Origin: Blastocystis sp. Blastoise
Lineage: Eukaryota; Sar; Bigyra; Opalinata; Blastocystidae
Direction of reading: 5' to 3'
DNA length: 64,000 nt
Assembly: GCA_039096225.1 (NCBI GenBank)
Contig: JBBPEB010000029.1
Span: 186,001 to 250,000, forward strand
Below the pieces are notes generated by a model that saw only the letters and a program-made list of their open reading frames with translations, made no database searches and had not been told where the DNA came from. Shown here in pieces: positions 9,563-33,253 of the stretch. Position numbers and translations under genes: made by a program. The number at the start of each line of letters is the position of its first letter. Position 1 is the first letter of the stretch.

Positions 9563-9660
9563 TTTATTTTTATTTGTTGATAAATAAGTAAGGAAATTAT
9601 TCTATAATCATAAATAAAAACAAAAAAATAATTATAAACAAAAATAAACTATTATATATA

Positions 9661-9782: not shown

Positions 9783-10068
9783 CTAAAGTGTAATATATAT
9801 ATATATATATATATATATTATTATTATTATTATATATTATTATTATTATTATATATTATTATCATTAGTATTATTATTAGTATTATTATTAGTATTATTA
9901 TAGAAATTAACAGAAAGTGGAAAATAGAAACACTCATAAATATGATAAAGCATGAAAATACAACACAAACATAAATGCATTAATTTAAAAAAAATATATA
10001 TATAATAATAATAAAAAATTGTACAAATATAAAACACGTAAAATATAAAAGAATATAATTTACACATA

Positions 10069-10077
10069 AAAGTAGTA
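10069..10077. repeat. Left 9-bp target-site duplication of the giant MULE
   Basis: AAAGTAGTA lies directly outside the left terminus and recurs exactly at 33227-33235 outside the right terminus. Nine base pairs is the usual duplication size for Mutator-like elements. Confidence 0.75.
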
Positions 10078-10225
10078 GAGGCATTGTTAGAAATACCCAA
10101 AAAATACCATAATTATTTTAACCTACCCAAAAAAAAAACGAATTGTTAGAAATACCCAAAAATATTCAAAATTTTTGTTAAAATACCCAAAAATTTTACA
10201 AAATTGTTAGAAATACCCAAAACTT
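10078..10225 (+). repeat. Left subterminal repeats of the giant MULE
   Basis: Three copies of TTGTTAGAAATACCCAAAA start at about 10084, 10143 and 10203, spaced by about 60 bp, with two diverged copies between them (ACCTACCCAAAA and GTTAAAATACCCAAAA). Such clusters are typical of transposase-binding sites at element ends. Confidence 0.8.
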
Positions 10226-10787
10226 TTTCAAGACTCTAAACGATTGGTACTTTGAAAACACAAATTTCTTAATAACCAATTAAAATTCTTTTTCTTTATT
10301 TTGTTAGAATTAGAAAAAAAACTCCAGAATATTTTTATATTTGATTTATTATATTTCACAAGTGAAGCTTATACTATGTAAGACATTAAAAAAATTTAAT
10401 AAATTCTCATAATAATGAAGAAAAATAACTATCTAAGTTAAAACCAGCATTTCATTTTACATATTTTATATAATTGCTAGAATTTTTAAACTAAATATAA
10501 TATAAATATTTCAGATACTTTTATCAATTGACTGGAGTCATTTATAATGTAATAATATATAGTACTGCTCTCAAATAAAGCATTTAGAAAACAACAATGC
10601 TAATTTTCCTGATTTTTTGGTGATTTTCCTCTATAAAAATAATATTTGCAGTTATAAATCACCAAAAAATACATTTATTTATTTTTCACTATATCTACAC
10701 GACTAAAAAGTTAATTACTACAAATTGTCGGCAACTATGTCTGTATATAGACGAAAAACACATTTTCATTATTATTTTTTAATAATT
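10226..10787. other. Region between left MULE end and transposase gene
   Basis: AT-rich, few TA runs. It should contain the transposase promoter and any first exon; I see no certain exon. An acceptor-like TTAATAATTAG ends at 10789, just before the first clear coding exon. Confidence 0.4.
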
Positions 10788-10789
10788 AG

Positions 10790-11761
10790 ACAATTGATTC
10801 AAGTCAGCCACAAGAAGATGTGGAAAATCGTTTTTGTATGAATAAGGTTGATTACAGTGACTTCAAAAATAGTGAAGAAATTAAGAAATTTGAAAATGAA
10901 GAAACATATGGAGTACAAATTATGTACGAAAATAAGTCTAAACTCAAAAGTGATGTCTCAATTCAAATGCAAAAGCTAGGATATCCAATTAAGGTTCAAA
11001 AATCAGAAAAAGGAAGAATTATTTACAAATGTTGTGTTTCCGATTGCCCGTTTATGCTTCATTTCCAAGGTGACGACGTTTCTGGATGGATAATGAAAAG
11101 ATACTGTCATCATGACTCAACTGTATGTTATTTAATTAATTATTATAGTTTATACTTATTATTAATATAGAAATGCAATCGTTTTAATATGATTTACATT
11201 AAGCTTAACAAACAAAATAAAATAGATTATCAAATTATTAAGACAAGTAACTAAATATAAATATAATATATAATGTATATAATATTCTATTATATACAGT
11301 GATAAAAAATCGAATTAAAAATCATCAATTTAATATAAGGTATATATATATATCAATATATAAATTGTGAGAGAGAAATCTATACATTGAATAAAGAAGG
11401 AAAAAGAGGAAAATAAATATATAGAGAGAAAAAAATGAAATACAGTAGTATATGTATGTGAAAAGTGTTATATATTAATTCAATGTATGAGAGTAATAGA
11501 AGAAATATCCACCTATATATATAGAGAAAGGAAGATTATATAATATATACAGAGAGAAAGAAAGAAAGAAAAATTCTATTATATATATAGTAAGAATGAA
11601 AGAAAGAAACATTTATGAATATATAAAGAGAGAACGACAGATATATATATATAGAGAGAGAGAGAGAAAGAGAGAGAAAAAAATATATAATATATATATA
11701 TATATAGAGAGAGTAAGAGATGGAAGAGATAGAGAGAGATACATAGAAAGAAAAAAAGAAA

Positions 11762-11819
<58 letters not shown>

Positions 11820-14091
11820 TAAGTCTTAATCCAATGATTCTATCAAAAGATGCTAGTAATAGTAATGATCAAAATCATGAAGATGAAGCTGAGATACATG
11901 AAACTATCAATTTTACACACAATTCTCGGAGCTCAGATGCTAATTCTAATCCTACAAATACCCAAACTCTTCCTATCTTAGAAGATCCATTCATATCTAG
12001 TAAAAATTCTGAAATGGTCATAGAAGATATAAATAAATCAAAGGATAATAATCATGAAGATGAAGAAAGTAGAACAATTGATATAGAATTGAATATTGAA
12101 GATACATCAATAGATAATGTGTTTTCTTATGAAGAACAAAATGAAGGAATTACAGAAGATAGATTTAATAATATATTTAAAGATATTTCTGATAAATGTA
12201 TATTTATTCAATATAAGTCACATAAATACAATCAAGATATAAGCTCAAATGATGTTGTGAGTTATTTAAAGGAAAATAATCTAGCCAAGTATTTCAAATC
12301 AATATCTCAGTTAAAACAATTCCTGGAGAAGAAGAATATCAGTGTTTCATATGAAATAGCAAGAAACGCCTTAAGAGAATTAGGTATTAAGTCAACTAAT
12401 GACTATAGTAAAATACCATGTATTATAAAAAGTATAATAAGCAAAGAAAATTATGCTATATATGGTTGCCTCCCTCCAGGATATACATATAAGAATATTA
12501 ATGCTTATCCTTCTTCTTCTTATATTCAATCTAATATAGATGAGAATATAGTAGATAATCATTTAGAACAAGATGAAACTTTCAGAGTAAACTTGGAAGA
12601 TAGTGTTCTGAATTATTCTGAAAATGATTCAGTTTGTAGTGGAAATAATTCCAATATGAATATACATGAAGAAATAAACATGGATAGAGAATTAAACAAA
12701 GCAGTAGGGAATAATAAAGTAATAAGTCATGAGTTTCTATATTCTTTTGTATCTATTAAATCAAATATAGCATTATATAAGAAGGGAAATAAAGCAGTAA
12801 TCTTTATGGATGGAACTCATATGTATATGAATGATCATATCATATTAACTGCTATATCCATTACTATTAATAGACAAATACTTCTTCTTGCTTATGGTAT
12901 ATATGCTGTAGAGTGTTTAGCTACCTGGAGTGATTTCCAAACTAATCTGAAAAAAGCACTTGAACTCATGTCATGTAAAACTACAAACATAACATTTTTC
13001 TCAGATATGGACAAAGGTCTCAAAGGAAGCCTAGGAGTAGTCTTTCCTGAATGCACATATATATCATGTGCATTTCATATTCTAAAGAAGATGACAAATG
13101 TGAATTCAAGAATAATAGGACTAATATCACAACTCATTCTAATTGATGATGAAGAAGAATTCTATAAGCTTATTAATGATTCTTCAATAACAGAGAACCA
13201 GAAGAAGCAAATACTCTCACAAAGGGGAAAGAATATGTATAATATAGATCTACCACCTCATGTATCCAGATATGGATACATTGCCTCAAGTTTGGCCGAG
13301 TCATTTAATAATCTTATTAGTGACATAAGAGGAATGTCTATACAGAAGGTATTGTTTGAAATCTATAATCATGCAATTAATTATCAACTGAAAATAAAAG
13401 AGGCACCTCATATATCATTCTTTCTTCCTTACTTTCAAAAAGAGTTTGATATGGCTGATATATTTGTTTCTAATGTGATATCATATAAGAGTATAAATAA
13501 GGGTTTATATAGACTAGTAATGGAAGAAGAAAACCGTGAATACATAATTAATTTTGAACAGAATACATGTTCTTGTTCAATTTTTCAATACCAAGGTTAT
13601 CCTTGTATACATGCTATTCTTCTATATAAAAAGTATAATAGCAGTGTTTCGTATAATCAACAAGGAATTGACGATTTCAATACTATTGCCAAATACTTCA
13701 TTCCATATAAGAACCATATGAATACTTATTATAATTATTATGTAGATAGGTAATGATATATATAATACATATTATATAAATATTTTTTTTTGTTATATAT
13801 AGAAGAATAGATGATTCATGCTTGAAAGAAGAAAGTCACATAAATATTACAGGACCAAATAATCCAATTCGTAAATCAGGTCGACCATCTAAGTTTAACT
13901 ATTCTCATATAACATCTTATTATCTGAAAAATAAGTATTGGAAAATAAAGAACAGTATTCCAGCTTTGGAGTGTTTGAATGAGTGTGCAGTTGAAGCTGA
14001 AAAAGAGAAATATGAAGAAACTGATATTGCCTCAATTCCTACACTTGAAGATGTAGAATCATCAGAATATAGTTCGAAGAGAAGAAAGTAG
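10790..14091 (+). CDS. Mutator-like (MULE) transposase with SWIM zinc finger
   Basis: This is the transposase of the giant element. The first clear exon (to about 11126) holds a MuDR/FLYWCH-like zinc finger with CCVSDC and WIMKRYCHHD. A small middle exon (about 11301-11339, IKNRIKNHQF) and a junction near 11814 fit by phase but are less certain. The main exon (11834-13749) carries the catalytic domain: Asp in MDGTH (about residue 326 of that frame), Asp in SDMDKGL (about 391), the CAFH motif typical of MULEs, Glu in LAESFNN (about 489), and a SWIM finger TCSCSIFQYQGYPCIHA (about 577-594). A 53-bp intron (13750-13802) leads to the last exon with a basic GRPSK AT-hook-like motif and a TAG stop at 14091. 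No stops or frameshifts occur in the catalytic exon, so the protein may be active. An intron with GA and TA runs separates the DNA-binding and catalytic parts. Confidence 0.85.
11640..11813 (+). repeat. GA and TA microsatellites in a transposase intron
   Basis: A GAGAGA/GAAAGA run followed by a perfect TA run (about 11765-11812) ends at the acceptor TATAG. These produce an artificial Arg/Glu/Ile/Tyr open frame. Confidence 0.75.
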
Positions 14092-14389
14092 TATTTTTTA
14101 AATGATAAGTCTATGTATATACTTATTATAATCTATAATACATATTAATTTTTTTACATTCCTAATAATATAAAATATTTTTAATTAATCATATTTAATA
14201 TAAATGTCTTCTTATTTATAAGATCATTGTTTTGTTATTGATTCAAATATAATATCATATATGTCGTTGATATTGCAGATATTCATATTAAAGAGACTAA
14301 GACTAATAAAAAAGAATACTCATCAACGGATATAAATCCAAAATGAAACCAGCTAGAGTAATATGTATTACAAATTATTGCATATGCAA
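14092..14389 (+). other. 3' flank of the MULE transposase
   Basis: AT-rich sequence without an exon that I can support; it grades into the purine-rich tract. Confidence 0.5.
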
Positions 14390-16033
14390 ATAAATGAAAG
14401 AGGACAAGAATAAGAAGGAGAAGGAGAAGGACAAGGACAAGGACAAGGAGCAGAAGAAGAAGGATAGGATAAAGATAAGAAGAAGGATAAGGATAAGGAT
14501 AAGAAGAAGAAGTAGAAGGAGAAGGATAAAAAGGACAAAGATAAGGATAAGGATAGGAGAAAGAAATGACAAGAAGAACGATAAAAAAAGAGAATGGCAG
14601 AAATAAAAGAAAAAGAAGGAGAAGGAGAAGGAGAACAAGAAGGAAAATAAGAATAAACCAAGAATAAACATAATAAGGAAAACATCAATAGAAGGTAAGG
14701 ATAAGTAGAATGAGAATGATTAGAAGTAGAAGCATAAGAATAATAATACGAAGAAGACGGAGAAAGAGAAGCATATGTGGGAGTAGAAGAAAAAGCATGT
14801 GAATAAAAATGGAAAAAGAAGAAACTAAAAAGAGAATAGAAGGAGAGGATCAAAATATGAATAAGAAGGAGAAGGATAAGAAGGATAAGAATGACAAAGA
14901 GAAGGAGAATAAGAAAGAAAGAACGAGAAAGAGAAGAAGGAAAAAATAAACAGAAGAAGAAAGAGAAGGAGGAGAAGAATGAGAAGAAAAAGAATAGGAA
15001 GGAGAATGACAAAAAAAAACAAGAATGACAAGAATGGCAAAAGGAAAAAGGAGAAGAAGACAAATTATAGAAGGAGGAGAAGAAGAAAAATTATAGAAGA
15101 AGGAGAAGAAGAAAGATTAAGAAGAAGGAGAAGAAGGAAAAGGAGGAATCAAAAGAAGGAGAAGGAGGAAGGAGAAGAAGATGAAAAAATAAAATTATAA
15201 GAAGAAAAAGTAGAAGAAGAAAGAGAAAGAGAAGAACCACAAAGAAAAGGGGGAGAAGAAAGAAATTATAGAAGTAGAAGAAGGAAAAGAAAAGAGAAAA
15301 AGGAGAAAGAGAATAAGGACAAGAATAAGGTAAAAGTAAAAGTAAAAGAATCAATAGAAGAAAAAGTATGAGAAGAAGAATATTGAAAAGGAGATAGAGA
15401 AGTAGACGAATAAGTTGAGATAAAATGAGAAAGAAGAAGAAATAAAAGTATGGTAGTAGAAACAGAAGTAGAAATAGGTAGAAATAGATGGAAAAGGAAA
15501 ATGAGAATCAGTAGAAGAAGAAGAAGAAGAAGAAGAAAATGAGAAAGAGAAGAAGAAGAATGAGAAATAGAATATAGAAATGAAATAGAAGAAACAAGAA
15601 TGAAAGAAGTAGAAGAAGAAAAAATAATACTAATAATACGAATGTGAATGAGAATAAGAAGAAGAAATAGAAGAATAGCAATAATGGAATGAAAATGAAA
15701 AAAAAAAAGAAGAAGAAAGAGAAATAGAAAAAGAAGAACAAGAAGTAGTTGTAATAGAAATGGATGTAGAAGCATAAAAAAGTAGTAGAAGCAAAAGTAG
15801 GAGTAAGAGTTGAAGTTGGAGTACAAGCGAAGTAGAATAGAAATATAAGTAGAAATATAAGTAGAAGAATGAGAAGTAGTATTAGTAATAGTGTAGAAGT
15901 CGAAATGGAAGAAAAAAATAACAGTAAGTAGTAGTAGTAGAAATATGAGTAGAAGAACAAGTATAAATAGAAGAATAAAGGAAAGAAGGAAAGAAGCTGA
16001 AGTAGAAGAAGTATAAGGAAAAGAAGGTAAATA

Positions 16034-16066
<33 letters not shown>

Positions 16067-19000
16067 TAAGGAAAAGAAGGTAAATATAAGAATAATAATA
16101 ATAATAGTAAGGAGAAGTAGTAAAAAAGAAGAAACAGAAGAATAAGGAGGAAGAGGAAATGAGATGAATAAAGAAAAGTAAAAAGAAGTAAAATATTGAG
16201 AAATAGAACGAGAAGTAAAAGAATAATAAAAAACAAACTTTAATAAGTATGGATAGAAGAAAAAGAAAAAGAAAAATAATGAGAAATAGAATAAAGAGAT
16301 TGAAAATGATAAGAAAAAGGAAAGCATGAAAGATAATAGGAATGAGAATAAGAAGAATAAGTAGAAGTATAAGGAGGAGTATAAAGAAAATGGAGATAAG
16401 GAGTAGAAGCAGAAGGAGAAGCTAAGGTTGAAGAAAAATAGAAAGGATGATAATAAGAAAGATAAAAGAAATAGAAGGAAAACGAGAGTGTGAAGTAAAA
16501 TAAGAATAACAAAAATAAAAAGAAGCAGAAGGAAAACAAGAAGAACTAAATGAAAATGAGGAGAGGAAGAATTTGAAAAAGAAGAAATATAATAAGAAGA
16601 ATAAGAACAAGAAGAGGAATCACAAAAATAAAAAGAAAGATACTACAAATAAAAAGAATACTGAGGAAGACAAAATATAGAGTAAAAAATGATATAGAAG
16701 AAGCAGAAGATAGTGAATAAGGAGAAGAAGAAGATAAAGTAGAAGAAGAAGTAGATCGAGAAACAGAATAAAGGGAAATGAAAAGTAGAATGAAAATAAG
16801 TAAGAAAATAGGAATATATAAATAAGATGTAGAAGAAAAATTGAAGCAAAATGAGACGAATTTAGAATAAAACAGAATACGTTAAATTAGAAGAATATGA
16901 AGAATAAAAAATGAGAAGCATACAAGTAGAATAATGAGAAATAGACAAGCCTGTAGAAGAAAGGCAAAAAAAGAAGAATCTGGAAAAAACAAGAATAAGA
17001 ATAGAATAAGAATAAGAATAAGAATAAGAATGGAATAAAAACTGACTGAGAAAGTACTAGAAGTAGTAGAAGTAGTAGTAGTGTAAATAGACTTAGACTT
17101 AGACTTAGAAGCAGAAGGAGAAGCACAATTATGTATGTATAAATAGAAGAAACAAAGTATAAGTAAAATAGGAAAAAGAAAAGGCGAATAGATGAAGTAT
17201 AATTATAAATATAAATAGAAGAATGAGAAAGAGAATATGAATAAGAATAGATGAAGTATAATTATAAGTACAAATAGAAGAAGAAATAGAAGAAATAGAA
17301 GAAAAATATAATAGGAATAAGGAGTAGAATTAAAAGAGTCTAATATAAATAATAATAAAAAGAAGTTATACTAGTATAAGTAGATGTAAAATGATGAATA
17401 TAAGTTGATAAACAAGAAGTACTAGAAGTAGAAGAATAAGTAGAAGTAGAAGAAATCGAATTATAATAGAACTAAAATAAAAAGTAGACGAAAAAGAGTA
17501 GAAGTTCAAATTGAAGAATAAGAATTAATAGTAGTACGAGTACATGTAAAAGGAGAAGTGAACGTAGAAGGAGAAATAGTCATAAGTAGTGGTAGTAGAA
17601 GTAAAGAACAAGAAGAAGAAGAAGAAGGAAAACTAGAAAGTATAAGTAGAACTAGAAGTAGAAAAGAAAGTAGAAGTAGACGTGCATGTATAAATAAAAG
17701 TAAGAATAGAAGCACGAGTACAATGATAAGTAGAATTAGAATAAGAATAAATACTAGTAGAAAGAAATAGGAATAAGAATAATAACAAGTAGTAATAGAA
17801 CTAGTAGTAGTAGTAGAAATTGGAATAAGAATGAAAGTAAGTAATAATATAAGTACAAGTAAACAAAAAGTATAAGTACAAGTAGAAATAGAAGAATAAA
17901 GTAATGAATGAAAAAAAACTGAAGAAGACGAAGTATAAGGAATAGAATAAGAACAGAATAAAAAAGGAATGAAAATAATAATAATGATGTAAAAACGTGA
18001 AAAGAAGGAGAAGAATAAAGAAAAGGAAGAGAGACTATATAATTAGAAAGAGAATGAGAAGTAAAATAAGAAGAACAAGAACTAATATAAATAGAACGAT
18101 AATAAGAAATAGAAGGAGAAGGAGAATATCAAAAAGAGAGTGAGAATGAGAAGAAAAAGGAAAATATGAAAGATAATAGGAATAAGAATAAAAAGGATAA
18201 GTAGAAGTACAACGAAGAGAAAGGAAAATGAAGAGAAGAAGTAGAAGCAAAAGGAGATGATGATGTTGAAGAAAAACATGTTGGAGAATAATAATAAACC
18301 ACATAAGGAGAAACAAAAGGAAAAGAAGAATTTGATGTAAAATAATAAGTATATGAAAAAAGGAGAAGCAGAAGGAAAATGAGTAGACTTAAACTGAGAA
18401 TACATGACAGAGAATTTGAAAAAGAAGAAATAGGATGAGAATAGTAGGAAAAAGAGAGGAATGAGAATAAGAAATAGAATGACGATACAAATAAGAAGAA
18501 GAAAAAGAAAATATAGAGAAAAAAGATGATATAAAAGAATGAGAAGATAGGGAATAAGAAGAAGATAAAAAGTAGAAGAAGAAGAAGAAGAAGAAGAACC
18601 AAAGCTAGAACTAGAACAAAGAGAAGGAAAAGTAGAAGTTTAAAAAAGAAAGATAATAGGAGAAAAAGTAAGAATTAGAATAAGATATAGAAGGATAGTG
18701 AGAAGAATTTGGTGAAAATAGAATACGCAAAAGTAGAAGAATATATATAAATAAAAAGTGAGAAGTATACCAGCAGAGTAAGGAGAACTAGACAAGAAAG
18801 TAGATACAAGTAAAAGAAGAATTTGGAGAACAATAAGAATAAGAATATGACTAAGAGAGTAGTAGTAGAACCATAAGAGAAGTATGAATAGATGTAAAAG
18901 TATAAATGAAGTAGAAGGAGAACAATAAGTATGAGTAGAACCATATGTATAAGTATAATGAGAATAAGAATAAAATAAGAAAGATGACAATATGAAGTGT

Positions 19001-20755
19001 TAGTAGAAGGAAAATGAGATAAATAGTAGAATAAAAAGAAGAATATTAAGGAGAGAAAGTTTAGAAGTGGAAGGAGTACAATAAAAATAAGAATGAAGTG
19101 AATAAGAATAGGAATAAGAAGAATAAAAAGGAGAAATGAAAATAGAAGGAGAAGAAAGAAGATATAAAGGAGAATAATAATAAGTAGAAGGAGAAATAAA
19201 AAATAAGTTTAATAAGAATGAAAATAAGAATAATAGAATAAATTGAAGATAGAAAAGTATAAGAAAAGAAGGAAGAAGAAGGAAAGTGATAAGATGAAGA
19301 ATTAGAATAAATAATAAGAAAATGAAGAATACGAATAAGGAGTATGATAAGCAGAAGTGAATAAAAAGAATGAGAAATGGAAGGACAATACTAATAATAA
19401 TAATAAGAAAAAGAAGATACAAAAGGAGGAGGAGAAGAATGAAAAAAAGTTAAGGCTAACTAGAAGCAGAATAGTATAAAGATAATGATAATAAGATTGT
19501 AGAACAAGAAATAGAAGTAGAATAAGAAGAGAAATGATTAGGAAGTATAAGTAAAGTAAGAAGAGAAAGATATCATGAATAAGAAGAGAAAGATATCATG
19601 AATAAGAAGAGAAAGATATCATGAATAAGAATAAGAATAAAAAATGAAGTAGAAATACAAGCAGAAATAGAAGTAGAATAAGAGTGTAAAAATAAGGTGA
19701 ATAAGAATAAAATGTGGAAGATGAAGAAGTAGTAAAAGTTGAGTGAATAGTAAAGAGAAATGGAAAGTAGACACTAAGGCTTATGAAATGAAAACAAAGG
19801 AATAACACCAGAAATAAGAAGTAGAATTAGAATAAGAAGGAAATTAAGAATGAAATGCTGAAGTAGAAGAAGAATTAACAGGAGACAAGAATAAGTAGAA
19901 GGCGAAGCAGAACGAGAATAAGCGTAAAAATAATAATAATTAAAGAATAATATCAATTAAAAGAAGGAAAATAGGAATGAGAAGTAAAATAGAAATTACA
20001 ATAAAAAAAATAAGTAAAAGTAACTAGATAAGCAGAATGAAAATATGAATAGTATGATGAAGGGAAAGGAGAATGAGAAAGTCGCATATGAAGGAAAGCG
20101 AGAAGTAGCACGAGGATAGTAATAAAAATAAGAAAGAGAAATTAAAAAATAAGGAGACGTGGAATAAGAAGGAGAAAGTGAGATATATGGAAAAACTAAA
20201 TAAGAAACAAAATATTAAGTAAAATAAGAAGTAAAAAAAGAAGTAAAAAAAGAAGTAACAACAATATATGAAAAAGAAGAAGTTGAAGAAGTTGAAGAAG
20301 GAGAAGAAAAATAAGAATAAGAGAAATATATCTAAGAATAATAAAAAGAAGATGACAATAACAAGGAGAAGTAAATTTACAAGGAGAAAAAAAAAGAAAG
20401 GAAACATAAGTGAAGAAGGAGAATAAGGAGAAGTAGAATAAGATGTACAGGTGAAGAAGAATAAGTAGTAGACGTAAAGTAAGAAGAATAAGAATAAGAA
20501 TGAAAGGATAAGAAGAAGGATAAGAAGAAGAAGAAGAAGAATGAAAAGGAAAGGATAATTAGAAGTATAATAATAAAATATAATAGTAGAATTCGTGAAG
20601 AGGTAATAGTTATGAAAACAAATAAAGAAAAATTAATATCTATACAAAAAAGAAGAAAAAGATGTAGTAAGAAGTGTATTAGAATGAAGAATGAAGAATG
20701 AAGAATGAAGAATGAAGAATGAAGAATGAAGAATGAAATTTTGTAAACCAAAAAA
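14390..20755 (+). repeat. 6.4-kb C-depleted purine-rich tract
   Basis: For more than 6 kb the + strand is almost only A, G and some T, built from drifting units such as GAAGAAGAA, AAGGAGAAGG, AATAAGAATAAG and AAGTAGTAGAAG; C is rare. No unit is strictly periodic, so it is an old or continually drifting array. Because the minus strand lacks stop-forming combinations in some frames, it shows long Leu/Ser/Phe frames (up to 353 codons), which I regard as artefacts. It lies downstream of the MULE transposase. Long homopurine stretches can form triplex DNA or R-loops; that is general knowledge, not shown here. Confidence 0.9.
20682..20741 (+). repeat. GAATGAA heptamer array at the edge of the purine tract
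   Basis: About seven to eight near-perfect copies of GAATGAA mark the 3' border of the purine-rich tract. Unlike the tract it is strictly periodic and so probably a recent expansion. Confidence 0.85.
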
Positions 20756-20983
20756 TTTAATAAATAAAAGAATAATAAATTGCAACTTTCCTAATAGACT
20801 AATAATATTTGTAATCAATTTTTTGTTTTATAGAAGAAACAATAAAAATACCACTAGGTCTAAAGAATATATAATATTATAAAAATAGAATATTAATAAT
20901 TATAATATAAAGAAAAAAATAACATATATATTATTAATAGTCAGTTAAAACAAACTAACTATATTATTAAATACATATATACC

Positions 20984-21737
20984 TTAATAAAGACTTGAAT
21001 CATCGCAATCTGATTCCCAAGTTGTGCTTAAATACGCTAAGATTCTATAAATAAATACGTAGAATAAATTAATAAAATTAATTAAAGTATAAACATATTA
21101 GAAAAACAACAAGATAGAAAAATAGGAGCTAATTCAATTATAAAAAGTATAATATAAAATTAAAAAAAGATAGGGATGCTATTAGAATGATAGTGATGTA
21201 TTAATAGCATAGACAAGAAATAGATATAGCAAAAAATAAACAAAATGAGAAAAATGAAAAATATCTATATACCTTAGATTCATCAGTATTGTTTACCAAG
21301 ACCTTTTGAATTGATCTGAAACCAGATGAAGTTTGTTTTGAGCATATAAACAAGAAATAACCCATTGATCAACTGATTACTATATAAAATTAAATATTTG
21401 AAGAGAGTAAACTATATAATATATATATTTATAACTAGAAAACATACATAGATTCATTTTATATGCTTATAATGAAAATATATGAAATAAATCAATATTT
21501 GATTTTCAAGAAATAACCATTCTGAGGATGGAAACAGAGGAAAAACAGCCTAAATAGCGGAATTAATCTCTTCTATAGAAACTTTTTTGGGTTTCAGTGA
21601 ACAAGTTTTAAAAATAATTTCTAGAGATTCAAAGTATGGTATAAAAAGTCTTCTTTGATATGGTCCCTATTCTTGGAGTCTTTCAGAATCACTTAAATCT
21701 TTGGAAAACCGTATTCAGCTACGGCTTAAATGAACTC
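20984..21737 (-). pseudogene. Spliced coding relic A with many in-frame stops
   Basis: Three minus-strand exons join in phase: 21737-21448, 21379-21273 and 21044-20984, with introns of about 68 and 228 bp bounded by GT and AG. The single frame reads GPYQRRLFIPYFESLEIIFK, KVSIEEINSAI, then SVDQWVISCLYAQNKLHLV, then ILAYLSTTWESDCDDSSLY before a terminal TAA. It is broken by six stops (TGA, TAG, TAG, TGA, TAA, TAA). Amino-acid composition is coding-like, unlike the surroundings. I do not recognise the family. It is probably a captured host gene fragment, as in Pack-MULEs, or a gene present before the region decayed. Confidence 0.55.
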
Positions 21738-21830
21738 CTAAAAAAGAATATTTTTTAAATATTATTATATGGATTATTTGCTTATTTAGAAGGTTATTTT
21801 ATTATTTATATTTATATTATATTTTATTAG

Positions 21831-22899
21831 GTAGATTATTATAGATTAGGCTTGAAATGAATCCAGATAATAAACCAATTAGTGATTCATTCTTTCACGT
21901 ATATACTTATTTGATTTACCATTATTTATATAGGTTTAGAAACATGATTTAGAGAGCCCGGTGGAGTTGGCTACAATATTGGAAGAAAACGCAATGATCG
22001 GAATTTCCTCTTTAAGAATATTCTTTGGTGTATGTTCTAGTGGTATATTATTTTGTTTTTTGTTTGTATATTTAATTATTTATTTAGGAAATTCAAAAGA
22101 AAAAAGTAATTGGTCTCCATCTACTAAGAAAATTGATGTCTAGGTCCTTCTTTTGATTTTTATTATTTTATTTTTTTATCAGAAGTATATATTTATGTTA
22201 TTAATGCTATATTGTATCTAATTATATAGAAATGGCAAGTGATTATTGTTTTGGAATTTTTGTAACTTTTCGATTTCAGCACAATTATCGAGTCCTTAAA
22301 AGTATATAAATATATTAAATAATTATTTTTTTCTATAGATATATGGAGTAAATTGATATGGTTATATATACAAAAAAAAATACTAGAAGAATATGGCTAA
22401 AAAGTATATATTTTTTTATTTTTATATTATTAAAATTATATATATTTGTTTAATTAAATTTGTATATTGTAGTTATTTATTTTTGTTATAACTGAGGCTC
22501 TAACATTGATATATGGTTCAAATATATATATATATATTTTTATTATTTATAAATTCTTAATATTTTATTAATTTATTATATTATTTTTCTATATAGGACT
22601 ATTAATTATCATTCTTTTATTATAGTTTATATATATATATATGTATTATTTATTTTCGATATATTTTATTCTTATTCATATATATAGTATTATTAAGCTA
22701 TGTACTCATTAGCTTCTCTACATCAATACTATTATGTGACTAGGTATATTATATATATATTTAATTATTAGCATATTATTTTCTATTACTTCTTAATATA
22801 TATATATATATATTTATATATTAACTAGTATTTTTATATAGAGAATGTGACGTTTCCCTTATGTTATAAACTTCATGGTCATCAATTTTTATATCTAAG
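21831..22899 (+). pseudogene. Spliced coding relic B with in-frame stops
   Basis: A series of plus-strand exons is separated by short TA-rich introns. The exons are 21831-21898, 21934 to about 22027, about 22089-22143, 22230-22301, 22339-22403, from 22473, 22688-22743 and 22842-22899. Phases match at 21898/21934, 22301/22339 and 22403/22473. The frame reads IQIINQLVIHSF, RARWSWLQYWKKTQ, then SDYCFGIFVTFRFQHNYRVL, IWSKLIWLYIQKKILEEYG, LSYVLISFSTSILLCD and RFPYVINFMVIN, with TGA, TAG and TAA codons between. Some stretches look membrane-like. No family recognised. It lies divergent from relic A, 94 bp away. Confidence 0.45.
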
Positions 22900-23179
22900 G
22901 TATATAGTTTTTATATGTAAGTAATTGTTTTATTGTAGTATATTGTTTCACATTATTTTTATATATTATTCTATTTTCCGTACAATAATTTTTTATTTTT
23001 TTTATATAATTTATATTATGTACCTATAATTACTAATAATATCCTATTGTTTATATTTCTGTTATTCATGTCTCTATAGTTTTATTAGTTATATAAAAAT
23101 ATAACTAGTAAAACTGTAATTACATATATATATTATATAGGTGTTATATAAATATACGAATGTTGCTTTAGTTGAAGAA

Positions 23180-23262
<83 letters not shown>

Positions 23263-24148
23263 GTTATAGACTTTTATTGTATTCTTTTTATATTATTATT
23301 TTATACATTTTTCTCTCTATATAACATATTCACAGATATATTTACCAAATATATACTCTTTAGAAAATTGATATATGTTTTATTTTGGAAGTTGATAATA
23401 TATACTAGAATCAGTTCATATCAATTGTTTATTCTTAAACTTTATATATATATATATATATTATTTATCAAAGTCAAAGTTATATATAAATAGAATAATG
23501 AAGAATTATCTATATATAGTGGTCTTTAGTTCTATTACTACATTATTTTTATGTATTTAAGGTATATATAAATATATTATATATATACTTTTATATATAC
23601 TTATTATATAAATATAAACTTATAGACTTATATATAGTAATATATCAGTTATCCTTTTATTTTTCTCATGAGTTTTTAAGTATATAGTCTTTTTATCTTA
23701 TTATATATATAATACATTTTTTATAATTGACACAAAAGGTAATATTATTTGTATATATAATTTTATCTCAACTATTCTTCTATTTTATTCTTTTATATCA
23801 CTTTTTCTTTCTATAACTATATTATGTATTATCATTTTATAATATAATTTGTTTATAGTTAATTATGTATATATATGTAGTAACAGTAATAACTCTTCTT
23901 TTTATCTCTTTTGTTCAATTATACTAGTATATTTTCTATGATAATATATATACTTTGTATTTATCTCCTTTTATATATATTATCTATTTATTTTGATACT
24001 AATTATATATACACTTAGTGTTATGTATACTACATTTTCTTTTTGTTTATAATACTATACTAATATCATTTTTATTATATATAGGATTAAGGATATATAT
24101 AATTGTTTTGAATGATTTACTTTTGTATTATGTTAAACCTTATTTTCT

Positions 24149-24189
<41 letters not shown>

Positions 24190-24908
24190 TTTTCTTTATA
24201 TTTTCCAGCTTTCTTTTCTATTATATACATTTATACTCACTATAGTGTACTATTATTAATATATATAGTTTGTGAAGATATTAAATAGATTCTACGTAAA
24301 GAGTATGTATTTTAATTGTTTTAATACATATACATAATATGTTCCTATGTTATATTTAAATATATATATTTTTTACTTTATATATATATTTTTCTCATAA
24401 TTACATATATGTATATATTCATATATATATATATATAGACTTGGTATTCCCTTAATTAATTCATGCCGTCTTATTCATTCATTTTATATATATAGTCTAT
24501 AATCAGCTTTTATGAATTATTACAAATAATGTATACAATCCTTTTGTATGTATTTTATTTATATTTATATAGCTTGCTATGTAGTATTTTCTATTATAAC
24601 AATATAATGTGTTTATTTTATTTATATATATATTAATTTTTTTTTTAATCTATATATAGAACGTATCTTTAGCTTATCTTCTATGTTCGTATACAACTTA
24701 ATATAGATAGTATATATTGTATATATTTATTATATATATTGTTTGCTAATATTCTATTTTTAACTTTATTCTTAATTACATTATATTCTATTGTATATTG
24801 AAATAATCTTTTTATTCTACATGTTTTTATTATTTAGGTTAGTATTAATAGGTGTAATAGAGTATATATATATATAATTACAATATTTTTATAGTCTCTT
24901 TTCTTCAA

Positions 24909-24941
<33 letters not shown>

Positions 24942-24960
24942 TATTCATATAATTAATATT
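22900..24960. other. TA-microsatellite-rich region
   Basis: TATATA runs alternate with short T-rich segments that could be decayed mini-exons of relic B; an 80-bp TA run lies at about 23182-23262. I cannot support individual exons here. Confidence 0.5.
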
Positions 24961-25028
24961 CCTTAGACTGAATATGGTCAGTAGCAATCATTAATAGATT
25001 GCTATCAGGTTCAATTCCTGATCTAAGG
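24961..25028 (+). tRNA. tRNA-like element with intact T-arm (probably a degenerate tRNA)
   Basis: A 7-bp acceptor (CCTTAGA with TCTAAGG), a CTGA/TCAG D-stem-like pair, a 7-bp anticodon-type stem (AGCAATC with GATTGCT) with 7-nt loop ATTAATA, and a T-arm TCAGG-TTCAATT-CCTGA all fold. The B box GGTTCAATTCC is near-consensus, and a T6 run follows about 12 nt downstream. Oddities: no linker between acceptor and D-stem and a one-base variable region, giving only 68 nt. If functional the anticodon would read TAA (Leu). It could instead be a tRNA-derived Pol III element. Confidence 0.4.
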
Positions 25029-26033
25029 TTGTATACTATATTTTTTATAAAAAAATTTAAATGTTTTTTCCCTATAGGTATTCTCATTCATTAGAACCAA
25101 TATGAATAAATACATTGAGTTTCATGCAATTGAATCAACTCTATACGTCGTTAGTCGCTCTTTTATAATAATTTTAGATACCTTTACTTAAAACCAAACA
25201 CATTCACAATTACAATCACCCAAAATTATCTAGTCATTATTTTGTTGAGTTATGTATCCTATTCATCAATTTTACACACAAATAAAAAATAAATATTCAT
25301 CAATAATATCTTGAAGTCTATAAACACGCAATACATTATTTGTTTATACTCTTAAAAGGCATTTCTACTGTTTATATTAATATGATTGACACTAAGAATC
25401 ATTTCTAACCAACTTTAAAAACTTTTGAAGAACCTTAACAAATTTACATTACCTAAAAAACTATTATAATCAACTTTGGCTTATACGAGTCATGATTAAA
25501 TTTAAATTATTAATAGAAATTCATAATAAAGGCATTCTATCTCAACATATCACCAAGAGAAATCAATTATGTTTGTAACTTCCCTAAAATTAAATTAATT
25601 ACTAAAAGACGTATTTTAATTAATGTAGAATTCAAATTCAAACACACATAAACTCATCATTTCTGACAATTTTACACATTTAGACAATCTAGTGAGTATC
25701 ACATAATCAACTAATTCTTGTTGTCTTCATCAAGTCTAACGATTTCCTTATGACAAGAAGCATCAATTTTATTTTATTCAACACTCTATAAATAATTAAT
25801 CAATTAACTAATTTTATTTACTTAAATACATACTCCAATAACAACAACAAGACATCAGGAGTGAGAATAACTGATTAAACTATTTAAATAAAATAATTAA
25901 TAATAAAAAGTAGAAATATTAGGATTTTAATAATTTTTAATAAGTTAATTTATAGTGAAGTTTCAATAATCATATAAAAAATATGATTAATTTAGCTTTT
26001 GTATGTTCTAAGCATATATCTATCTATATATAG
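25029..26033. other. Low-TA, gene-free region inside the MULE
   Basis: Mixed AT sequence with no TA runs and no exon I can support. The composition switches abruptly after the tRNA-like element. Confidence 0.45.
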
Positions 26034-26380
26034 TCCCTAGGAGTATATTAGAGTACCTTCCAGTCTCCATTGGCAGATTGATCTAAACTGGTATGTTCTC
26101 TTTCTCTATTATGAGCTAATCTAGGTGATGTAAAGTGGTTGTACTAGATGGTCAGCTATTGTGTCGTGGTTATAAATGGGATGATGTGACGTCACCATAT
26201 AAAACTATTTCTTTAGGTTTTATCAATGAGTGGGAAATGCTTGGCTATGTTAACTGAGCGTTGCTTGAAACTTTCAAAAAATCAATTGGTCAAATGTCTA
26301 AACAGATTTGTCTTGAATCATACAGAATCATGATCTATTCACATAATCACTACATCTACAATTCAAATATTCATATTTGA
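26034..26380 (+). pseudogene. Spliced coding relic C with in-frame stops
   Basis: Exon 26034-26090 reads PRSILEYLPVSIGRLI then TAA; a 34-bp GTATGT...CTAG intron follows. The next exon (from 26125) reads in matching phase DVKWLY, a TAG, MVSYCVVVINGMM and a TGA. After a second short GT-AG interval the sequence from about 26217 reads FINEWEMLGYVN, a TGA, then ALLETFKKSIGQMSKQICLE and on to a terminal TGA near 26379. Composition is coding-like and GC is higher than the surroundings. Family unknown. It ends about 200 bp before the nested 2.8-kb element. Confidence 0.45.
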
Positions 26381-26549
26381 AGTTACTTGGTTTAACTCAT
26401 ATTCTGATTCTAGATGTATATATTTTCTACATTTTTTTTATATAAATATAATTATATAATTATATTAATGTTTATATAGGTTGTTATATAGCTATTAAAT
26501 CTAGTTCTTGCTTTTCTTGTCACTAAATTCTTGGTTCTTCTCTTTTATG

Positions 26550-26574
<25 letters not shown>

Positions 26575-26580
<6 letters not shown>

Positions 26581-29376
26581 TATCTGTCAAACGCGTATTG
26601 TTTTTTTCTCAAACGCGTATTTTCTCAAGATTATTTTCTAAAATAAAAGAATAACTGTGATATTTTTTTCTTAGCTATATAACTTTTTATGTCAAGCTTC
26701 AGTGCTATTACACACAACATATGATTAAATATTTCATTAGTGCCTTATGAAGAAGAAAAATAAGAGTCAAATTGTATTCATTTCAAGGGTGTACTCTGTC
26801 AAACTTTGTTAGGTCATTCTGATTTCGTAAATACACATAGAGAATGAGTTCTGACATAATCTTGTCGACAAATAAGTCTTTGAAACTGTCTTCTAGGTCG
26901 TGATACTGAACTTCATATTCTTTGTTTGTTTTAATTTATTATGATTTACTTTCTACAGAGTACTTTAAATATATTGTAATGACTTAAAAGCTAAATATAT
27001 GAGATAAAATTTTGAATGGGTTGAAATCCCTATTATAAATAATCAGATTCTTCTCAAATTGATTTCAACTATTGTACTATGATTAAATGATTGAACTAAT
27101 TAATAAAATAAATAAAACAATAAATATATTTGTCATGTCATAATTCTATTTTTCAGGTTTCTGTCTTTTATTTCAGACAGTCATATTTTTATTTTTAGGT
27201 TGCATATGACGTGAATATTTTTCATAATAATTTTTGTAGATTATAAAATATTTTATAATTATTAGAATTGTAAATGATTAACTTCCAATATCATCAAACT
27301 AAAAATAATTATATTTTCTTGAGTACCAAATACTTTTGACTACAACAATAAGCAAAAAACATAAAAATTAGTTCTTCATAGTTTATTAACACTAAACAGA
27401 AAATTTGATTTATTATGGATTTGCAAGCGTCTAGTTTCACCAAATTGATTTATTTATAATTTTAATTTATAGTTATAAGATATATGTTATGTGAACTTTA
27501 ATATTATGTTAATAAATATCTTTTTAATATTTTCCTTATGGAGAAAAATAATCATTTTCAATTGACGTTAAAGTGTTTTTCTAAAAAAGGGTTGTTACAC
27601 TTAGTGATAGTTCTTGATAATTATTGAATTAAAAACAAAAAAAATATATTCTTATATATTTAACACTCTCTTATATAAATATTCAAATGATATTTTAAAA
27701 AACAAATAATTCTTACTGGTATAAAGAAAGCTGCTAAAAGAAAGAAAAAGCCAAAAAAAAAATGATTTTTTTCTGTTATTAATTAATGTCAGGTTACCTA
27801 TCTCTTCATGTAGATTGGGAACAGTTTATATATATTAAATTAGTACAATGTTAAGTATCTCTATTTAGTAAAATATAGATTTATATATAAATATTTTAAT
27901 ATTTATTAACACAAAAGAAATTATATGTATATGGCTTTTTGAGTTTTTTACACTTTTTTCTTTTTTCCCATATTGAAAAATAGAAATTCAAAAGTATGTG
28001 CAGTTTCAAACTGTTTATATGCTTGCTATTACATTATGATAGTGAAAATTCTAGAATCAATACATTATGATACAACACAATGAAATGCATTTTTTTCATA
28101 CTTTTTGACAATAAAGTAATATAAATTATAAATAAATTTCAGAATTTTAAATTATTTAAAAATGATAGATATTCGACTATAGTTGCAAAAAATATAATAA
28201 AGAGAAATAAACACATAAAGAAAACATATATATATTTGACATAATATACATTTTTTAAAAACTCGTTTTAGGGTATTGTTATCATGCCCTTGAATCAATA
28301 AATATTTCATTAATTGTTTTCAAGGTTTATATATATAATATAGATTGATAGATGCATAATATACCAAAATTTCAATACTCTGTGACTTATTATTAACCGT
28401 CAAAATATCATAGTTAGTTAGTGTTTTTATGAAAAACAATAAAAAATGTAAAAAAAAATAAAATCCTCTTTTTGAAACACTAAATTTAATTTCAAATATT
28501 TTAATATAAATAATATAAATAAGCACGGCTTATATTTTATACATATATAAAAATAGAAACTAGTTAATCATTCTATGAACTTCAGTAATCAGGAATATTC
28601 ATGGAGTAAAGGAATGAGTGTGAAATTTTTTGTTGTCTTTTTCATTATTCTTAATTTTTATTATATGTTTATACATAGATATTATTTTATAAATAACTTG
28701 ACATATTATTTCTTTAACTAATTTATTTTATGAGTAGGATTGTTAACTCAATATATAAAACTATAAAAAACAGTTGTTAATTGTGTGTCTAAAGGTAGTG
28801 TATTTCTTAATGTTAAGTGATTATTTTATCATTTATATTAGTCTTGATTTAGGGTTGATTATAATATCCAACAAATAATGATTTTTAATGATAATAATAT
28901 GAGAATTAGCACTAAATTATTGATAAGATATTACTAATTTTTAAGATAGATACGTTAACAATAATTGCAGACGATATAGACCTCATTTATGTTGTAATAG
29001 ACTAATTTTGAAAGAACATTATTCAAGTGATACTTGCTCAAACTCATTTGAGTGAAAATTATTTGTATATTCTTGAAGATAAACATATTCTTATATATTT
29101 TTTAGATTAACTCTTTTTAATAAGTCGCTCTTGTCATTAAAAAAGTTGGTACTATAAAATAAGACGAGCAACTTTGTGTACTGATTTTTCATTGTGTATT
29201 ATGTGTATACACTTCATATTTATGAAGTAGTCTCTGATAGATTAGAAAAGAGTTTATGCAAAAAATTATTTAAAAAAAATAAATATCAACTGAGTTCAAC
29301 CAAAAACAAAATATACACAAAAACATAAAAATACGCGTTTGAGAAAAAAACGATACGCGTTTGACAGATATTATTA
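26575..29376. mobile_element. Nested 2.8-kb DNA element with 43-bp TIRs
   Basis: TIRs at 26580-26622 and 29329-29371 match in inverted orientation at 42 of 43 positions. Each contains CAAACGCGTAT twice, so the ends have an internal direct repeat. The terminus is ATATCTGTCAAACGCG. The 5-bp sequence TATTA flanks both sides (26575-26579 and 29372-29376), but in this AT-rich context that could be chance. The 2.7-kb interior has no ORF longer than about 70 codons and no recognisable transposase, so it is non-autonomous or decayed. The superfamily is unclear. It sits inside the giant MULE and therefore inserted later, or was carried with it. Confidence 0.8.
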
Positions 29377-29522
29377 ACTTCTTATGTTTTGATTTTATAA
29401 TATAAATTTCTTAATTTTTGAAAATTATTTCTATTTATACATATTATTAGTTTCTTCTATGTACTTATTTGAAGTTTTTATTAATATTAATTTATGCACT
29501 TTTTTCTTTTTTTTAATTATAT

Positions 29523-29559
<37 letters not shown>

Positions 29560-29649
29560 CTATTTCTATATATATTTGGTTTTCTTTTTGTCTATATTTG
29601 CCTTCTTTTCCATTTTATTCTTATTAATTTCTTTGTTATACTTTATATT

Positions 29650-31560
29650 TTTCTTATAGTCATCGTGTTGATTCGGGTAATTGTTACTACTATTAATACT
29701 ACTCAATATCACATTTCATTATATAATATACCTTTTTTCTTTAGTTCTTACTTATCATTCTCCTTACATTCTTCTTATCTTTCCTTTTTGTGTTCTCCTT
29801 CTATAATTACATCTTCTCTTCATTTCCACCTCTATATCTTAATCTTCTTGTTCTTCTTCATTTTCTTCTTATGTCATTACTTCCTTTTCATATCTTTCCA
29901 CTTCTACTTTTCTATTCGCTATTCCTTTTAATTCTTCATCTAGACGTTCTTTCTATATTCCTTTTTCTTTTATATATCCTTATTCCCCTTCTCCTTTTCT
30001 GTCTCCAATATTCTTTTCCTACTCGTTCTTCTTCATCTATTTATCCTTATGCTTCTATATCTTGTATATACCATTCTTTTGCTTCTCAATCTCAATCTCC
30101 TTCTCTCAATCTCTTCTGTATCTCTTCTTCTTCCTCTTCTTCTATATATCCTTATTCCCCTTCTATATCTTATATATATCTTTATTCTTCTTCTATATCT
30201 TATATATATCCTTCATCTTCTATATATCCTTCGTCTTTATATTCTTTTTCTCTCTATATATCCTTCGTATATATATTCTTTTTCTCTCTATATATCCTTC
30301 CTCTGCATTCCTTCTTCTATTTGCCATTATTCTTCTTATACATTTTATCTATATCATTCTCCTCCTATGTTTTCTATTTTTTCTATATATCCTTATTCTT
30401 ATCTTTCCTCTTCTATATATCGTTTTTCTTCTATATATCTTATTTTTGCTTCTTCTTCTATATATCTTTCTTCTTCTTCTATTTATTGTTCTTATTCTTC
30501 TGTATCCTCTATTTATCATTATTTTCCATAGTATTCTTCTACTGTATCTTCTTCTTGTCTCTTTCTTCTTCTTAAATATCTCCTTCTTCTCCTTCTTTTC
30601 TTCTATATCTTCAATATACCTTTCTTTATCTATATATTTTGATGTTCATTATTTCTCTATATATCTTTATTCTCCATATTCTTCCGTATCTTCTTCTTCT
30701 TTTTATGCTTCTCTTTATTCTCCTTCTATATATCTTTCTTTTCCTTCTTTTCCTTCTCAGTCTCCTTCTCTTCATTTTATCATTCTCTTTCTCTCTATCT
30801 CTATCTCTTTCTATTTCTATATCTTCTATATGTACTTTTTCTTCTTCTTCTTCTATATATCATTATTTTCCTCCTCCTCCTACTCTTCCTTCTTCTTTTA
30901 TCATCATTCTTCTACTTCTTCTATCATTTCCTTCTTCGATTTCGATATCTCTATATATCATTTTTCTCCTTCGTCTTCTCCTTCTTTACTCTTTATATTA
31001 TTCTAATTTTATTCCTTTTCATCTATTTCCTCTTTATCTCAATATTCTCTCGATTTATTACACATAATATCAATTATATATATATATATATATAATCTTT
31101 TATACTCTTTTTCTTTCATCATATACTATCTTTTTTTCCTACATTTACACTTGTACTTCCTATGTGTACTCTACTTATATTTTTATTTCCTTCTTAATTT
31201 ATTCTCCCTTGTTCTTCTTCTAACTCTCTTCTCTATCTGTTTTCTCTTCTTCTCCTATACATGACTTTTTATTATCCATCTATCTTTCTTTTCTTCTTAC
31301 CTTCTTATCTTATTTTTTACTCGCTTCCTATTCTTATTCTTCTTCTTTATATATATGCTTTTTATTCTCTATCCTATTAACTAACTCCTCCTTCTTCTTC
31401 TTCTCATTTACTTAATATTTTTCTTTTTCCTAATTTATTTTCCTATATTCTTCATATTCATGTTTTCATTTTTTTATATTCAATTCCTATCTTTTATCAT
31501 CTTATATCTATATATATACTTCTCTCCATATTTAAACTATTTCTATCTACTATACTAATT
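29650..31560 (+). repeat. 1.9-kb pyrimidine-rich, G-depleted tract
   Basis: The + strand is almost only C and T plus A, with units such as TTCTTCTTCTTC and TCTATATATCCTTATTC. It mirrors the purine tract at 14.4-20.75 kb on the opposite strand. Plus-strand open frames of up to 314 codons (Ser/Phe/Leu/Ile/Tyr) arise from the lack of stops and are not genes. Confidence 0.85.
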
Positions 31561-31678
31561 AATATAGTATTTATTTTTATTAATAAAAAGATTTTATCCT
31601 TTTTATTTCTTATTTATACTTATTATTTTATATGTTTCTTGTTTATATATTTAATTTATATATTAAAATAATTTTTTC

Positions 31679-31722
<44 letters not shown>

Positions 31723-31855
31723 GCAACAGTAATATGTATTCTATTTGATAAATATATATGAAAGAGATAAGTATATATTTATATATCTATATTATTGATT
31801 CATCTTTTTTAGATATATATATTAAATATTGTATTTTATTATTATTTATTATTAC

Positions 31856-31923
31856 TCTTATGCTCTATAAGGTGAGAGGCTATCATAATTCGATAACAAT
31901 CAGGTTCAACTCCTGACATAAGT
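31856..31923 (+). tRNA. Second tRNA-like element (probably degenerate)
   Basis: A 6-bp acceptor (CTTATG with CATAAG), a CTCT/AGAG D-stem-like pair, a 4-bp stem around loop ATAATTC, and a T-arm TCAGG-TTCAACT-CCTGA with B box GGTTCAACTCC. The T-arm stem is the same as in the element at 24961, and again there is no linker before the D-stem. A T7 run follows downstream. Likely the same family as the first. Confidence 0.35.
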
Positions 31924-33139
31924 CATTCTATATATATATATATATATTTTTTTATTTAATAAACGTTTTAATTATATGTTCTTTTTACACTTATTAATGT
32001 ATTTATTAAATTATTTATAGCTCTTCATCCTTCAAAACTTCATAGTTTCTGAAATGAGTTGTAATCTGTTTTATTCTCAAAAGTGTAGCTTATTCAAAAT
32101 ATGTTTGAATTGAGTTAAATACAGTTTTAAAACTTAGATTCATTTTTTATTTTCAAAATATACTCAAATACAGAGTATATTCAGCAATCATTAATACTTT
32201 AACGACTGTAGTTTATTATTTTTAACTGAATTCTGGTCAGTATACTCAATACAAACAACTAAGTACAATACATACGTATTCATGATTTTTAAACAACATT
32301 TTCCATTTCGACATTTACTTGATCCATTATAAAACTATTTGTCCTTTTGATATAGTAAAGAAAAACGAATACCATATACCAAACAAAACGTTTTAACTTG
32401 AATCTCGTCATCTATTAAATATTTTTCTTAATCAATTCACAGTTCATACTCTTAAAACAGTTATTTAAGATTAATATTTATGTATTTGTCCTTATACAAT
32501 ATTTTCATGACACTGTAATAATATATATGAAAATTAAAAGAGTCAAGAAATCTGTTAATTATCAAAAAATAAGTTCTATTTACTAAAATCATATTTATAA
32601 GATTTATAAACTTATACCATATAAAAACATAGCTCTTATATAAAGTATTGGCTGAATTAGTTTATTTGTAAGTAAATTAAAAGTATGTTATATAACGTAA
32701 TTTTAGGTTACTCTTTTTAATCAGATTTATTTCATAGCTATTTATGGTTTATTTGTCTGTTAATCTTATTTTTTAAAACAATTACAGACAATTATATTAT
32801 GATCCTTGTCTATTAAGTTATTTTATTGAATTAATAGTATAAATAAAAGTTATATAACAAAATAAATGTATATATTGATTAAAATAAGGAATGAATATAA
32901 ATAAATAAAAATAGATAAAATTGCCAAAAAGCAAATTCTTAGAATTATATAGTACAATAGACGAACTTCTAATAGAAACTTAAAAATCGATTGATTGGAT
33001 CAAATAGTCAAATCCTAACGTCATAATATGAATTATTCTTTTCATTTTTTATTAATTTAAATTCTTGAAATACATCTAATAAACACGGTTATTATATAAA
33101 TTAATACGATTGGACAACGAAATCAAAATGTTAACAGAA
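31924..33139. other. Low-TA, gene-free right part of the MULE
   Basis: Mixed AT-rich sequence leading into the right subterminal repeats. No exon or ORF supported. Confidence 0.45.
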
Positions 33140-33226
33140 ATTTTTGGGTATTTCTAACAAATCATACAAAAAATTGGGTATGTATACAAATCAATAGGGA
33201 AATCTGGGTATTTCTAACATTTTTCC
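33140..33226 (-). repeat. Right subterminal repeats of the giant MULE
   Basis: Two copies of the same motif in inverted orientation (GGGTATTTCTAACA) lie at 33146-33159 and 33206-33219, about 60 bp apart, plus a diverged copy (TTGGGTATGTAT) at 33174. The spacing matches the left end. Confidence 0.8.
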
Positions 33227-33235
33227 AAAGTAGTA
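33227..33235. repeat. Right 9-bp target-site duplication of the giant MULE
   Basis: AAAGTAGTA is identical to positions 10069-10077. It lies in the second intron of the split minus-strand gene, 18 bp inside the donor site. Confidence 0.75.
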
Positions 33236-33253
33236 TGTATTAAAATAAAATAC

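Follow-up and report, generated by a model that had tools for sequence, protein, structure and literature searches.

A 20-kb Mutator-like element within the intron of a predicted gene of a CACTA-like transposon in Blastocystis sp. Blastoise

Introduction

Two exons of a small gene predicted in the stramenopile Blastocystis sp. Blastoise are separated by more than 23 kb of DNA, which raises the question of what the intervening block is, how it came to lie there and to what kind of gene the separated exons belong. The stretch analysed here (the window, 64,000 nucleotides, C19:186001-250000) was compared with the whole 33.3 Mb genome in 34 contigs. The original prediction was that the block is a Mutator-like element (MULE) of 23 kb lying inside the intron of a gene. 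According to the available part of PMC10741241, MULEs usually measure less than 5 kb and can surpass 8 kb, and the available part of PMC6431247 reports that DNA transposition becomes less efficient beyond a cargo of about 6 kb. A survey of eukaryotic MULEs (PMC6446971) makes no mention of Blastocystis in its main text. A literature search pairing Blastocystis with Mutator-like elements found, by titles and the first parts of abstracts, nothing about such elements, and a search for Blastocystis together with Blastoise found no paper.

Results

Extent and ends of the element

The block and its borders were mapped as follows.

10078..33226, plus strand: Mutator-like element, 23,149 bp with a 2.8-kb nested insert and about 20.36 kb without it, with end points common to seven copies
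10069..10077, no strand: left 9-bp target site duplication AAAGTAGTA, found once at each of two empty sites
33227..33235, no strand: right 9-bp target site duplication AAAGTAGTA, found once at each of two empty sites
10078..10219, plus strand: left end, GAGGCAT followed by three exact copies of TGTTAGAAATACCCA (offsets 8, 67 and 128) and a weaker copy at 98
33145..33226, minus strand: right end, reading inward GGAAAAA followed by two exact copies of TGTTAGAAATACCCA (offsets 8 and 68) with a weaker one between them at 38

It had been claimed that an inverted motif lies equally far from a perfect 9-bp direct repeat at both sites, and this was confirmed, with a gap between AAAGTAGTA and the outermost copy of the 15-mer TGTTAGAAATACCCA of exactly 7 bp on each side. 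Exact copies of the 15-mer start at 10085, 10144 and 10205 on the plus strand and at 33145 and 33205 on the minus strand, and the spacing, with the weaker copies included, is about 30 or 60 bp. When up to two mismatches were allowed, the window held five matches against 0.19 expected, and none of 100 shuffled sequences gave five. The 9-mer AAAGTAGTA itself was found four times against 1.66 expected, with four or more in 9 of 100 shuffles, and its count taken alone is weak evidence for an insertion. The inversion between the two ends is confined to the 15-bp motif, which begins 7 bp in from each tip. As the outermost 7 bp are unlike each other (GAGGCAT versus GGAAAAA) and only 69 of 178 ungapped positions match at offsets 23-200, the element has no classical long terminal inverted repeat. 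Terminal inverted repeats of MULEs are often long. Lineages without terminal repeats have been described in the available part of the survey cited above (PMC6446971).

The transposase

A transposase gene lies just inside the left end.

10737..14091, plus strand: transposase gene, annotated as an 853-aa protein, with Pfam MULE and SWIM domains

The pieces of the gene were mapped to 10790-11122, 11171-11245, 11302-11337, 11813-13633 and 13804-14088, with a start exon of two residues at 10737 that was placed by eye. The MULE domain (PF10551) was matched over model positions 1-99 of 99 with an E value of 2.3e-10 and 41.2 bits against a cut-off of 27.6, which bears out the claim of a MULE transposase near the left end. 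The zinc finger, which in many MULE lineages is of the SWIM type, was also above its Pfam cut-off (PF04434), and a match to the N-terminal DNA-binding domain PF03108 reached 16.5 bits, under the cut-off of 25 bits. By eye, candidate motifs that would hold the catalytic D, D and E residues were placed at positions 482, 546 and 644 of the protein. The window transposase is 100% identical to an annotated Blastocystis sp. Blastoise protein that is present on seven contigs, and its main exon is 100% identical and free of stops in all seven copies. Searched against the protein collection (7,997 candidates scored), the transposase had two matches, both from the same organism, and no solved structure matched it at E 0.01.

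Sister copies and empty sites

It had been proposed to search the genome for further copies with the same termini, and six more near-identical elements were found. The exact 15-mer TGTTAGAAATACCCA occurs 65 times genome-wide, versus none for a reversed control pattern; 35 of these lie in seven elements, 26 in nine relatives described below and four elsewhere. The seven near-identical copies are on C8, C13, C14, C19 (the window), C20, C23 and C31, and the six sisters measure about 20.37 kb each. In alignments longer than 400 bp that involved the C8 or the window copy, the C8 copy was 99.8-99.9% identical to every one of its six sisters along the entire element; two alignments of the window copy that extended into flanking DNA were 99.6% identical. 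All seven start with GAGGCAT and the 15-mer and finish with the inverted 15-mer and TTTTTCC. Each is bordered by a perfect 9-bp duplication, different in every copy (ATTATTATT, TATATATAT, TTTATATTA, TAAAAATTA, ATTATACAT, TAAAACAAT and, in the window, AAAGTAGTA), those of C8 and C13 being less informative because they sit in simple repeats. A duplication of 9 bp, found in all seven copies and in seven of the nine relatives, falls in the range of 8-11 bp of the MULE superfamily.

Outside the 16 elements, exact 15-mers were found at C28:256397, C28:365741, C28:365799 (this latter pair spanning 365741-365813) and C30:16094, and these four are possibly solitary ends or damaged copies. It was also noticed, post hoc, that the copies on C8, C13, C14 and C20 are less than 60 kb away from the end of their contig (21, 59, 47 and 53 kb, respectively), where a contig end does not by itself denote a telomere.

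Measured from the first 15-mer to the last, the six sisters are 20,348-20,356 bp long, against 23,135 bp for the window copy. The sisters do not have a 2.79 kb insert that the window copy carries, the ends and TA duplication of which were defined by comparison with the C8 copy, where the site is empty.

26583..29368, no strand: nested third transposon, 2,786 bp, with inverted TCTGTCAAACGCGTAT ends and a TA duplication

This nested transposon had 17 full-length matches in the genome at 99-100%, the window one included, and two partial ones. The claim of a 23-kb element with a nested transposon thus stands as far as the nesting is concerned, and its size has to be corrected, since 2,786 bp of the 23 kb are insert and the MULE proper is about 20.36 kb, which is still far longer than a usual MULE.

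An empty site with a single AAAGTAGTA had been proposed as a check, and two were found, on C5 and C23. C5 matches the right flank of the window MULE at 99.9% and the left flank at 97%, C23 matches them at 99.8% and 99%, respectively, and at both loci the flank matches overlap by 9 bases; both read straight through, with one AAAGTAGTA at the joint and no MULE. These are paralogous sites within one genome and not alleles. The lack of any empty site and of any second copy had been named as grounds against the insertion, and the genome holds two empty sites and six further copies. The empty sites together with the six near-identical sisters indicate that the MULE moved recently.

The interrupted gene and the outer transposon

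A small minus-strand gene with exons on both flanks of the MULE, their phases fitting exactly, had been proposed, and the predicted exons do join in frame (33254 to 9782) and run to a stop.

33458..33607, minus strand: small gene, predicted exon 1, 150 nt
33254..33422, minus strand: small gene, predicted exon 2, 169 nt
9661..9782, minus strand: small gene, predicted exon 3, 122 nt

In the window the predicted second intron (9783-33253) is 23,471 bp long; its counterparts in C5 and C23 have 341 and 309 bp, respectively. Joining the exons gives an open frame of 146 codons in each of the three copies, with no nucleotide difference between the window and C5 and two between the window and C23. A diverged homologue on C23 has 46% identity over residues 47-106 and 62% over residues 106-144, and its intron of about 70 bp lies at the same residue with splice sites like those of the window (donor T|GTATT, acceptor TAG|GGGATCC). 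Because the frame is open in three copies and the intron of the diverged homologue lies at the same residue with similar splice sites, the gene model and the argument from phase hold. The small protein had no match in the protein collection among 15 candidates scored. An AT-rich repeat of the interrupted intron (about 9790-9910) has many short matches across the genome and accounted for most of the 151 matches to a query containing it.

The matches to C5 and C23 extend well beyond the exons, starting at 7973-7977 on the left and ending at 43253-43255 on the right, and at these limits the window reads AAT-CACTACTGTCGTTTT ... AAAACGACGGTAGTG-AAT, that is, ends of the CACTA ... TAGTG type with a 3-bp AAT duplication, the latter read in the window copy.

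7977..43252, no strand: outer CACTA-like transposon, CACTACTGTCGTTTT ... AAAACGACGGTAGTG, AAT on both sides, three copies in the genome
34509..36785, plus strand: open frame of the CACTA-like element, predicted tnp2 transposase, Pfam Transposase_21 (PF02992), 29.5 bits, just above the cut-off of 28.6

The ends were located by eye and from the match limits; a comparison of exact 11-mers between 7900-8300 and 36000-47000 for inverted repeats gave one unrelated match and missed the true ends. The element spans about 12.1 kb in C23 and about 25.2 kb in C5, the latter copy containing other DNA as well. Its small gene, as judged from the sequence, is an accessory gene of the CACTA-like transposon, and since the interrupted gene belongs to that transposon, the locus is one transposon within another. 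The original prediction was therefore right about an insertion into an intron, and wrong in so far as the gene is not an ordinary host gene. From the nesting and from the absence of the small insert in six sisters, the order of events was the CACTA-like element, then the MULE, then the 2.8-kb TA-flanked element.

Intron-bearing gene-like pieces, by eye a PHD finger and a repeat protein, lie within the CACTA-like element at 38840-41300, and DNA related to them at 83-91% was found on C4, C17, C18 and C25; they are possibly captured host sequence. Just left of the CACTA-like element, a long open frame at 5029-6720 matches BTB and TLDc domains. Elsewhere in the window a 78-bp inverted repeat, 97% complementary, occurs at 60823-60900 and 62042-62119, 1.1 kb apart.

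Relatives without a transposase

When the right 1.38 kb of the MULE was used as a query, the seven copies were matched at 100%, nine further loci at 87-93% (one of them shortened at its end), one at 71%, and there were further partial matches. The nine relatives share the ends of the MULE and are about 15.6-23.8 kb long, and no transposase or MULE-domain match was found within any of their intervals. The relatives on C4 and C16, compared over nearly their whole length, align to the MULE left and right of a gap in which the catalytic exon is missing. Identity of the C4 relative to the MULE is mostly 60-80%, reaching about 90% or more near both ends as well as in blocks near window positions 20.9-21.9 and 25.3-26.1 kb. 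A perfect 9-bp duplication borders seven of the nine; none was found at the C4 relative, which lies in a microsatellite, or at a second one on C16 (C16b), the right end of which is cut. Because the same flanks border the relatives on C21 and C22, these two were taken as a single event, and at least six independent insertions are represented. CACTA-type ends were seen inside two transposase-less relatives (C16:944147-944897 and C28:208651-209240), from which it follows that the CACTA and MULE families nest in both directions.

Arms and tRNA-like sequences of the interior

Beyond the transposase gene, the interior of the MULE holds two tracts of biased composition and two tRNA-like sequences.

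14319..20568, plus strand: purine-rich arm, 0.73-0.90 purine per 250 bp, limits approximate and taken from the C8 copy
29607..31606, plus strand: pyrimidine-rich arm, 0.17-0.28 purine per 250 bp, limits approximate and taken from the C8 copy
24961..25028, plus strand: tRNA-like cloverleaf 1, in the MULE and two relatives, fold z -4.80
31854..31924, plus strand: tRNA-like sequence 2, in the MULE and two relatives, called by ARAGORN as tRNA-Ile (aat)

The purine-rich arm is about 6.2 kb long and the pyrimidine-rich arm about 2 kb, and the C4 and C16 relatives have the same arm layout. Coding was considered for the arms and rejected, as stop-free frames are expected on a pyrimidine-rich strand and the phase of G and A drifts along the tract; no coding phase was found in the purine tract and no extra open reading frame was supported in the MULE. 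Selection on arm purine content was not supported, since transversions per site between two relatives in the purine tract (0.0124) were not consistently lower than in the six other stretches compared (0.0052-0.0349).

The cloverleaf fold of the first tRNA-like sequence had a z score of -4.80 in the window, with none of 200 shuffles as good, and of -3.02 in a relative (3 of 200). For the second sequence the fold gave z -2.94 in a relative (1 of 200) and z -1.03 in the window (30 of 200), the window piece having a few extra flanking bases that make the two values not strictly comparable. The second sequence was compared over 15 places chosen because they match it; eight of these belong to the set of nine relatives, and seven are more distant. 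A GGTTCRANTCC motif, which we take to be B-box-like, was kept in all 15, and a stem that presumably corresponds to an anticodon arm forms in 11, with a paired change in one (L067) and a different stem sequence in another (L073); in the other four (L069-L072) this region folds differently. The pieces were rejected as ordinary tRNA genes, given that neither scores as a tRNA in Rfam, although ARAGORN does call the second a tRNA-Ile. Rfam gave no match at gathering score in the whole window, the tRNA models gave none up to E 5 in 20600-33240, and a single unrelated model gave a weak opposite-strand match at each of the two places. None of 63 tRNA places listed lay within a MULE element (63 of 1,493 genome candidates scored).

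Discussion

The transposase, the length of the duplication, the number of copies and the empty sites identify the block, on the sequence evidence, as a MULE, and it is unusual in its size, its scant terminal inverted repeat and its interior. We are highly confident that it is an autonomous element of about 20.36 kb that was inserted by its own transposase into the AT-rich intron of a small gene of the CACTA-like element, duplicating 9 bp of its target. Movement would proceed by cut-and-paste through a DDE-type reaction, with the transposase presumably binding the motif arrays, spaced at about 30 bp, at both ends. As the transposase-less relatives share these ends, they could be moved in trans, and copies may be gained through repair or replication after excision.

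An alternative is that the repeats arose by chance and that the block was produced by segmental duplication or by faulty assembly. The 9-mer alone is indeed not rare in the window, and duplicated blocks do occur in this genome, as the shared flanks of the C21 and C22 relatives attest. However, seven elements with identical end points, each in different surroundings and with a duplication of its own, together with the two empty sites, make this explanation extremely improbable. It could also be thought that two MULE ends enclose unrelated DNA and move with it as a compound element, given that the transposase gene takes up the smaller part of the 20 kb and that no role in transposition is evident for the low-complexity arms and the tRNA-like pieces. 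Such a compound is quite improbable in view of an interior that is the same in seven copies, of two transposase-less relatives that keep the order of arms, tRNA-like pieces and ends, and of the genome searches with the 15-mer and the transposase, from which no complete MULE is known at either end alone.

As for the gene that received the MULE, it might be an ordinary host gene captured by the CACTA-like element, which carries other gene-like pieces (about 38.8-41.3 kb) with related DNA elsewhere in the genome; that the small protein is unmatched in the protein collection also leans this way. Against capture, matches to the gene above E 0.4 all lie in the three element copies and at one diverged locus beside a diverged tnp2 match, and no free host version was found in the genome. 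We regard capture as unlikely and an accessory gene of the transposon as the preferred reading. Like CACTA (En/Spm) elements as described in the available parts of PMC10741241 and PMC6431247, the outer element has CACTA ends, a 3-bp duplication, a tnp2 match and a length of more than 10 kb; it is unlike them in its small gene, for which no relatives were found outside the genome (15 candidates).

Among known MULEs, Muta1 of Aedes aegypti, as presented in the available part of PMC5225508, likewise combines a MULE transposase, a 9-bp duplication, near-identical copies and transposase-less relatives with the same ends, and it too has a short motif repeated subterminally at both ends. Unlike Muta1, which is 3,198 bp long with terminal inverted repeats of 145 bp, the present element measures about 20.36 kb and has only a 15-bp motif inverted. 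Barley Abermu is also larger than a usual MULE and moved recently, according to the part of PMC9168764 at hand, but it is given there as more than 8 kb with two extra open reading frames, whereas the 20.36 kb here are mostly of low complexity and hold no supported extra frame. In its position behind the transposase gene, the purine-rich arm recalls the minisatellite that is listed for some Phantom and Rehavkus MULEs as following that gene or lying at its end (PMC6446971, available part); the arm here is about 6 kb long and has a pyrimidine-rich partner on the opposite side.

It is conceivable, if rather doubtful, that this MULE lineage moves units of 16-24 kb as a rule and that the cloverleafs and opposed arms act as functional modules, perhaps as polymerase III promoters, chromatin boundaries or replication elements, a role that would explain why even the transposase-less partners have retained them. 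A 20-kb MULE that has recently multiplied, with intact copies, empty sites and equally large partners that have no transposase, makes the size limit of transposition testable in a natural system.
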